DNA from: Peptococcaceae bacterium BRH_c23
GTDB taxonomy: Bacteria; Bacillota_B; Desulfitobacteriia; Desulfitobacteriales; Desulfitobacteriaceae
DNA: 16,799 bases
Assembly: GCA_000961805.1 (NCBI GenBank)
Contig: LADV01000246.1
Location: 1 to 16,799, forward strand
Direction of reading: 5' to 3'
Position numbers and translations under genes: made by a program. Shown in pieces: positions 5,428 to 16,799 of the stretch. The notes under the pieces were generated by a model that saw nothing but the letters and a program-made list of their open reading frames with translations, searched no databases and was not told the origin of the DNA. Numbering within the stretch: position 1 is the first letter of the stretch; the number at the start of each line of letters is the position of its first letter.

Positions 5428-5441
5428 CTCCAACCCCCCTT

Positions 5442-5650
5442 TTCGAGGTTCGAGGTTCGATATTCGTGGTTCGAACTTAGCCTCGAACTTTTATCGTTTA
5501 CTTGTAACTTCTTTCTTCTACTTCTAATCTCTAAACAAAGAACTTTACCCCTAAATCTGAGCTTCTAGCCAGATGATCGTGTTTGATAGCCTCAAGCACA
5601 GGCCTTTCGGACTTGATTCTCGAACCACGTCCTCGAACTACGAACTACGC
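5442..5650. repeat. Heptamer-repeat element between asd and dapG, inverted arms
   Basis: This gap contains no gene. Its left end is five tandem 7-bp units (TTCGAGG, TTCGAGG, TTCGATA, TTCGTGG, TTCGAAC; 5442-5476). Its right end (5619-5650) is the same kind of array in inverted orientation: read on the minus strand it gives TTCGTAG, TTCGAGG, a six-base ACGTGG, and TTCGAGA. The two arms could pair imperfectly around a 140-bp AT-rich centre, a layout like a small non-autonomous mobile element, though I see no target duplication. Related arrays occur at 10613 and 16225. Confidence 0.75.
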
Positions 5651-16113: not shown

Positions 16114-16224
16114 AATGGAACCTCCTTAAATTTTCAATCCTTCTCAACTTGTTTCCTCTTCGACATATTGTTATTATTTCCTGCAATTTGCATAAATAAA
16201 ACTAAATTAAGAATAAACCCCTAA

Positions 16225-16344
16225 ATCGAAGTTCGAGGCTCGATGTTCGAGGTTCGAACTTTGCAACGGGGGCTCGATACTAAGAATCACGCTCCCTAAA
16301 ACATCTCTTTCTCGCATCTTGAATTTTGCACTCGTACCTCGCAT
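16225..16344. repeat. Heptamer-repeat array upstream of pnp
   Basis: Five in-phase units ATCGAAG, TTCGAGG, CTCGATG, TTCGAGG, TTCGAAC (16225-16259) are followed by about 70 bp of spacer and two degenerate inverted units CTCGTAC, CTCGCAT (16331-16344). The layout, a direct block on the left and an inverted block on the right, resembles the element at 5442-5650. It lies in the gap between pnp and the IS110-family element. The rest of 16114-16404 shows no gene. Confidence 0.65.
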
Positions 16345-16404
16345 AAAGAAACAATCATGAACCCCGGCGTTCACAAATTAGAATGAAAATGTTTTCCAGT
16401 CATG

Positions 16405-16590
16405 CGAATTCCATAGTCTTCCATTTGGAATACTCTTATTGGCGGGAGTTAAATATCCGCAAGTTTATTGGTGGAATTTCCCCCGTTAAAGAAACTGGTT
16501 TCAGTAACCTTTGAGTACAAATTAGTGTGCCTTGAGCACGTGTAAGAAATTTCTTTTAGTTTCAGGTTACTGAATCTCCCGCCAATTAAT
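16405..16590 (+). ncRNA. Candidate bridge RNA of the IS110-family element
   Basis: The non-coding stretch directly before the recombinase folds into an ordered set of stems. ATTCCA/TGGAAT (16408-16431) forms a first small hairpin. A perfect 11-bp helix, ATTGGCGGGAG (16438-16448) with CTCCCGCCAAT (16576-16586), encloses two more: AAATaTCC with GGAATTT (16451-16458, 16473-16479; 14-base loop) and a perfect 11-bp TTCAGTAACCT/AGGTTACTGAA (16500-16510, 16564-16574) around a 53-base interior with its own GTGC/GCAC hairpin. IS110-group elements are known to encode a bridge RNA of about 180 nt exactly here, with loops guiding donor and target recognition. Location, size and two-loop layout fit; guide matches cannot be tested in this window. 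Confidence 0.5.
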
Positions 16591-16605
16591 TAAAGGAGGT
16601 TTCAA

Positions 16606-16799
16606 ATGGACGCTATTTTGGAATCATGTGCTGGCTTGGATGTTCACCAGGAAACAGTTGTAGCTTGTATACTCACTGGTTCTCTTGATCAAAAGCCTAA
16701 GAAAGTAGTTAAAACGTTTTCTACTACAACGACCGAACTCCTTGCATTAGCTAAATGACTTGAAGAGTTTAATTGCTCCCATGTTGCTATGGAGAGTAC
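16606..16799 (+). pseudogene. IS110-family recombinase, interrupted by TGA, 3' end off-window
   Basis: AAAGGAGGT five bases before an ATG opens a frame reading MDAILESCAGLDVHQETVVA, the N-terminus of IS110-family DEDD recombinases; the Asp of GLDVH is the first catalytic residue. After 50 residues the frame meets TGA (16756-16758), then continues open with LEEFNCSHVAMEST to the edge, again family-like. Relatives have Trp at about this place (LAKWLEEF, from memory), so one TGG-to-TGA change explains the stop. The copy is probably inactive by itself, unless the stop is read through or is a sequencing error. Confidence 0.82.

Follow-up and report, generated by a model that had tools for sequence, protein, structure and literature searches.

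The window analysed here is the whole stretch of 16,799 nucleotides at positions 1 to 16,799 of contig LADV01000246.1 from Peptococcaceae bacterium BRH_c23 (assembly GCA_000961805.1). It ends inside an IS110-family element that begins, with its left end, at about 16351 and fills the last 450 bases. With a probability of roughly 0.94, the segment from about 16435 to 16588 encodes the bridge RNA of this element, which lies upstream of a gene that we take, from its translation, to be pnp; the host is a relative of Desulfosporosinus. The fold of the leader, the covariation of this fold, and sequence matches of the loops are shown by the sequence analysis. A preliminary description of the window had proposed a bridge RNA at this place; compensatory changes in the stems and the agreement of the loops with target and donor DNA support this proposal. 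Positions refer to the plus strand unless stated otherwise.

Two nested and perfect helices of 11 base pairs, already listed in the preliminary description, can be read directly from the letters. The outer helix is formed by 16438–16448 (ATTGGCGGGAG) and 16576–16586 (CTCCCGCCAAT), the inner helix, which closes the donor loop, by 16500–16510 (TTCAGTAACCT) and 16564–16574 (AGGTTACTGAA). Folding of 16405–16600 as RNA yielded -55.6 kcal/mol, compared to -40.2 ± 4.1 kcal/mol for 200 dinucleotide shuffles (z = -3.8), none of which reached an equal value; both helices are present in the minimum-energy and in the centroid structure. The target loop contains a first guide at 16459–16467, which is expected to be complementary to the right half of the target (placed by alignment, with the register taken by eye from relatives), a small hairpin GGTGG...CCCCC at 16470–16484 (helix 3 of the alignment fold), and a second guide TAAAGAAAC at 16487–16495, which covers the left target, the core, and two bases of the left end. 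The donor loop contains a first guide ACAAATTAG at 16517–16525, a small hairpin GTGC-CTTGA-GCAC at 16527–16539 (helix 4 of the alignment fold), and a second guide GTAAGAAATTT at 16542–16552, for which the guide and the right end of locus L014 predict a match to the right end.

An alignment of 17 proteins served to scan genome contigs for relatives. The best 80 of the 218 relatives found were kept and correspond to 79 loci, to which two viral contigs and two of three plasmid matches were added. The leaders of 67 distinct elements, the window included, could be aligned over conserved blocks. For the tests, 42 elements were picked by hand with exclusion of near-duplicates, and n is lower in comparisons for which some elements lack the left or right end. 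The strand-swap test comprised 41 elements including the window; L061 was excluded because its leader is clipped by the 190-base cut. The left ends of L029, L039, and L057 are doubtfully anchored, yet these elements were retained.

In the strand-swap test, the outer helix had an energy of -20.6 kcal/mol with the element's own strands and of -13.4 kcal/mol with strands of other elements (z = -12.9), and the corresponding values for the inner helix were -13.7 and -8.1 kcal/mol (z = -13.4). A borrowed 3' strand thus costs about 7 kcal/mol in the outer and 5.6 kcal/mol in the inner helix. The stem of the target loop gave a z of -5.4, and for none of the three stems did any of 20,000 permutations reach the observed value. 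RNAalifold, applied to 28 sequences, recovered the outer helix, the target-loop stem, and both small hairpins, and missed the inner helix, whose conservation therefore rests on the strand-swap test. In the same 28 sequences, all five outer-helix pairs show two-sided changes; the covariation score is 0.41 compared to 0.07–0.12 with slid partners, and 91% of the cells can pair compared to 26–43%. Stems lacking compensatory changes, which had been named as an outcome that would speak against a bridge RNA, were thus found neither in the alignment nor in the strand-swap tests. The outer helix closing both loops, which the preliminary description suspected to be unusual, is conserved among the relatives.

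A covariance model trained with the window (R1) matches 16435–16588. A second model built from 26 relatives (R2), of the kind that the preliminary description had suggested, detects the window at 16432–16591 even though the window and L014 were omitted from its training (67.5 bits, E of about 5e-13 by a rough calibration). R1 had no match in nine of 47 sources (L025, L072, L076–L080, L082, L083), and its match in L074 lies away from the gene sought. Beyond Bacillota, the fold is therefore documented by the leader alignment and the strand-swap test, which include L074, L077, L080, and L082, and not by the model. Rfam yielded no match at the leader at gathering thresholds. In L057, a second model match at 5428–5577, about 1.6 kb past the first, apparently belongs to a neighbouring element.

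The loops were compared with the DNA in 32 combinations of four guides, four DNA stretches, and two senses. The second target guide is the same as the left flank (z = 20.1, n = 41), the first target guide is the reverse complement of the right end plus flank (z = 7.8, n = 32; 6.6 for an overlapping stretch), and the second donor guide is the same as the right end (z = 10.6, n = 32; 4.0 for an overlapping stretch). The first donor guide is the same as a left-end segment that adjoins the subterminal repeat (z = 9.8, n = 41). Apart from these signals and the overlapping stretches, z ranged from -2.2 to 1.9. With exchanged sides, the geometry of IS621 demands that the first donor guide be reverse-complementary to the first bases of the left end; a match of this kind was rejected (z = 0.7, n = 41).

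As the guide windows had been set after examples were viewed, the comparison was repeated with elements fetched later, which have 42–73% protein identity. A model match at E ≤ 0.1 was found in 17 of 29 sources; L096 and L100, further copies of the discovery element L025, were excluded, and of the 15 elements kept, 14 have the left flank and 11 the right end and the second donor guide. The signals recurred for the second target guide and the left flank (z = 6.5, n = 14), for the first target guide and the right end and flank (z = 3.8, 15 of 20,000 permutations, n = 11), and for the second donor guide and the right end (z = 4.6, n = 11). Judged from these sequence comparisons, we regard the first three matches as established. 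For the first donor guide, the match to the left end is likely: in a set that mixes old and new elements and contains one element per type of this guide, it gave a z of 6.8 (0 of 50,000 permutations, n = 19). Loops without complementarity to donor or target, the second outcome that had been named as adverse, were thus not what the guide comparisons revealed.

In the window itself, TAAAGAAAC occurs on the plus strand only in loop 1 (16487–16495) and at the junction of flank and element (16344–16352), and ACAAATTAG only in loop 2 (16517–16525) and in the left end (16373–16381). Equally good match scores were obtained in 12 and 3 of 5000 shuffled stretches, respectively, and at 0 and 3 of 1621 other places in the window. 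Five of the nine bases of TAAAGAAAC lie in the flank, where 16344–16348 is the left half of the insertion target, two in the putative core AA shared by target and element (16349–16350, placed by eye from the spacing to CATG and from the right ends of relatives), and two in the left end. The second donor guide of L014 is the same as that of the window, and the right end of L014 reads TTTTCGTAAGAAAT; the right end of the window's element, beyond the window, is thus expected to carry TTTTCGTAAGAA, followed by a flank similar to AACTTGC, the reverse complement of 16459–16465. In relatives, the right end is found some 85–155 bases past the point where the recombinase match stops.

The preliminary description had also noted two similar decamers, TTATTGGCGG at 16436–16445 and TTATTGGTGG at 16465–16474, which do lie at these places. 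Its suggestion that TTATTGGTGG could swap into the outer helix finds no support and was rejected, because by eye TTATTGGTGG is mostly constant among the relatives while the outer-helix strand varies (GGCAGGTC, GAACCGG, TAACAATAC). Nor does TTATTGGTGG mark the donor end, which is marked by other sequences. It comprises the end of the first target guide and the 5' strand of the small target-loop hairpin (consensus TTTTTTGGTGG), and its resemblance to TTATTGGCGG is most plausibly a coincidence.

Several observations weigh against a bridge RNA or reduce the force of the evidence. The guide windows were fixed after matches had been seen by eye in the discovery set. In the later set, the first donor guide, which hardly varies there, did not match the left end (z = -0.3, n = 14); the values outside the signals of its 20 comparisons spread from -2.6 to 2.7, and guides are common to several of its elements. 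Only two of the four guides can be checked on the window copy, as its right end and right flank lie outside. All permutation z-scores are inflated by the relatedness of the elements, and the structure used to count the covariation of the outer pairs came from the same alignment of 28 sequences. R2 matched four of the six sources searched and neither L077 nor L082. A scan of 16200–16799 revealed no sigma-70-like promoter. Finally, codon 51 of the recombinase gene is TGA in the window, whereas all 17 relatives in the alignment carry Trp at this place.

Among the other explanations, the one that survives best accepts the bridge RNA and concerns a single guide: the likeness of the first donor guide to the left end could stem from a recombinase-binding motif present in both RNA and DNA, and not from pairing. 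The match is in the same sense, opposite to what the IS621 scheme would require, and its failure to recur in the later set points in the same direction. On the other hand, RNA and DNA change together across distant lineages (CACAGGCTAT, CACAACGAAG, ACAAATTAG), as seen in the set of 19 elements. We consider this explanation possible and rather doubtful. It is very improbable that the structure is a 5' leader that regulates translation of the recombinase by attenuation or by masking of the ribosome-binding site; it directly precedes the gene, and AGGAG at 16594–16598 pairs with CTCTT at 16433–16437 in the minimum-energy fold, but loop segments that track the element's own flank and ends would be left unexplained. 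Even less credible is a function of the helices as DNA, in protein binding or as cruciform ends with the loop matches as relics of end sequences: subterminal repeats and a hairpin with covarying arms are indeed present in the left end, but loop 1 matches the flanking target outside the element, and the conserved helices contain G-U pairs.

For the bridge RNA, the following mechanism is probable. The outer helix would join the ends of the transcript and enclose the target and donor loops in a closed unit, each loop being a stem with two guides that flank a small hairpin. By analogy with IS621, the recombinase of about 408 residues would bind this RNA and hold one loop on the target and the other on the junction that the ends form in the circular element; once these pairings have brought the circle to the target, it would exchange strands at the two-base core. 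The target loop keeps the geometry of IS621 with left and right exchanged, as if the ends of the element were inverted relative to the RNA. The donor side agrees with this apart from the first donor guide, which would read the part of the left end that adjoins the subterminal repeat, beyond the hairpin. If the junction of the circle folded on the subterminal repeats, both donor-guide matches would be set across one internal loop.

The system was compared with the text descriptions of IS621 (PMC11208160, PMC11208158) and of the seekRNA elements (PMC11187229). As in IS621, the RNA is encoded in the left end and precedes the gene, the first loop corresponds to the target and the second to the donor, and a stem-loop separates the two guides of each loop. 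Also, the bases past the core, that is, the last two of TAAAGAAAC, agree by eye with the handshake guides of IS621 (PMC11208158). In contrast, the RNA of IS621 is presented in the text as three stem-loops, one of them at the 5' end, with no closing helix (PMC11208160, PMC11208158), whereas the RNA of the window has an outer closing helix. For IS621, the 5' guide is assigned to the left side, where it pairs with the bottom strand, and the 3' guide to the right side, where it pairs with the top strand; these sides are exchanged in the type found here. Subterminal repeats of 2–3 bp and a recombinase of 328 residues are given for IS621, compared to about 408 residues here.

With regard to the seekRNA elements, the position of the RNA upstream of the recombinase gene corresponds to the IS110 group (IS621/ISEc21 type), but the guide order does not: the 5' target guide of the relatives complements the top strand of the right side and the 3' guide matches the left, the latter being the only target guide that can be checked on the window itself. 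ISEc21 likewise has its RNA upstream of the gene, with the opposite guide order and a recombinase of 358 residues (PMC11187229). The order found here, with the complement of the top strand 5' of that of the bottom strand, is the one by which the text of PMC11187229 defines the IS1111 group. Longer subterminal inverted repeats, reported as 7–17 bp for this group (PMC11187229), may be a further feature shared with IS1111 elements such as ISEc11, ISKpn4, and ISPa11. These elements differ in that their RNA is usually downstream of the gene, their recombinases have 330–350 residues, and their terminal extensions are 7 and 3 bp long (PMC11187229), compared to an upstream RNA, about 408 residues, and a left extension of about 30–45 bp with a hairpin here. 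Exceptions in the side of the RNA are acknowledged for this split (PMC11187229). This kind of system is defined in two Nature papers of 2024 (PMC11208160, PMC11208158) and in the seekRNA paper (PMC11187229). As in the IS110 family in the wide sense, the type found here has a folded RNA in one non-coding end whose loops match target and donor, two of the four guides being seen on the window itself.

The wiring, as read from sequence, mixes features of two element groups that are usually described as distinct. Tentatively, it may be a third wiring, in which a closed RNA has exchanged guides and the donor loop recognizes the junction of the circle as a folded hairpin. The subterminal repeats would be the stem of this hairpin, and the donor guides would pair with both sides of an internal loop in the bottom strand rather than with a plain duplex junction. 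Compared to the cited texts, the outer helix closing both loops is provisionally new, and so is the IS1111 guide order in combination with an RNA that precedes the gene of a recombinase of about 408 residues. The same holds for a donor guide that likely reads the left end past a conserved hairpin in the same sense, a match that did not recur in the later set. Among the papers listed in the literature search, 30 of 127 in one case, there was no other study of bridge-RNA anatomy; the search left preprints and most subscription journals uncovered, so that "new" is provisional. The published texts separate IS110 from IS1111 by RNA position, guide order, and repeat length, and infer a possible difference in mechanism. 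Varied elements that combine both patterns make it testable which features serve which step and which merely reflect position, and the donor side may reveal how an element recognizes its own folded ends. Bridge RNAs are under development for DNA rearrangement, and the closed RNA, whose guides can be read in many Bacillota, provides further material for this purpose as well as a rule by which targets can be deduced from sequence.

The boundaries of the element were deduced from multi-copy relatives, in which start and stop of the repeat are visible. The left terminal stretch (16351–16392) contains a hairpin TGAAC-CCCGGC-GTTCA at 16358–16373 (no strand assigned), whose arms covary (z = -6.3, 0 of 20,000 permutations, n = 39 elements). 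It is followed by the segment identical to the first donor guide (16373–16381), which begins 22 bases inside the left end, beyond the hairpin and in the same sense as the guide, and by the left subterminal repeat ATGAAAATG at 16383–16391. The inverted mate of the repeat, CATTTTC, lies at the right end of relatives and precedes the donor-guide match there. The perfect subterminal inverted repeat is 4–10 bp long, with a mean of 7.4 compared to 6.65 for swapped ends (5 of 20,000 as high, n = 31), and has at least 7 bp in 25 of the 31 relatives, part of this length being built in by the motifs used to find the ends.

The recombinase gene (16606–16799) runs off the window, which holds 64 of its codons. 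The first 50 residues are identical to those of a protein of 408 amino acids (P0082) that carries PF01548 and PF02371, the two Pfam domains of IS110; the 50-residue piece alone has no Pfam match. The DEDD RuvC-type N-terminal domain and the Tnp domain with the catalytic serine are thus seen through relatives only. Profile A1 matches IS621 and ISCro4 at residues 227–375. Due to the TGA at codon 51 (16756–16758), the window copy is probably not active by itself; complete genes are present in relatives such as L004 and L018.

Of 62 distinct recombinase genes, 17 have a frame that ends at 306–320 codons, 39 reach at least 400 codons, and 6 are otherwise broken. Examples of split frames are L063, L050, L032, L014, L041, L042, L045, L060, L061, L067, and L071. 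Except in L044, a tract A8–A9 adjoins the motif ESAG of the catalytic serine just before the stop in the split genes seen, and in loci such as L032 the family match continues to residue 404 despite the split. Three genomes carry split forms in 7–8 copies that score the same or almost the same, which suggests programmed slippage rather than decay. The part of a review on frameshifting that was consulted names IS1, IS3, IS5, and IS630 and does not contain "IS110".

A search for close copies at E 1e-130 identified one of 82 genomes of the class, namely that of L014. Plasmid DNA yielded no match in a similarity search, and none of 55 stretches of viral contigs sought with the 50-residue piece was confirmed. 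When the pnp-like gene was searched in 398 genomes, 384 matched, and the closest was Desulfosporosinus sp. BG (81% over 2135 bases). No empty site upstream of pnp was found in related genomes, where homology ends about 100 bases into the spacer. By eye, terminator-like hairpins or palindromes are present at the flanks of L005, L053, L070, L031, and L063, which represent several lineages, and the spacer left of the window's element contains a short repeated motif like CGAGGTTCGA at 16229–16260. At the opposite end of the window, positions 1–99 of the minus strand match a cobalamin riboswitch that is clipped by the window edge (52.9 bits).
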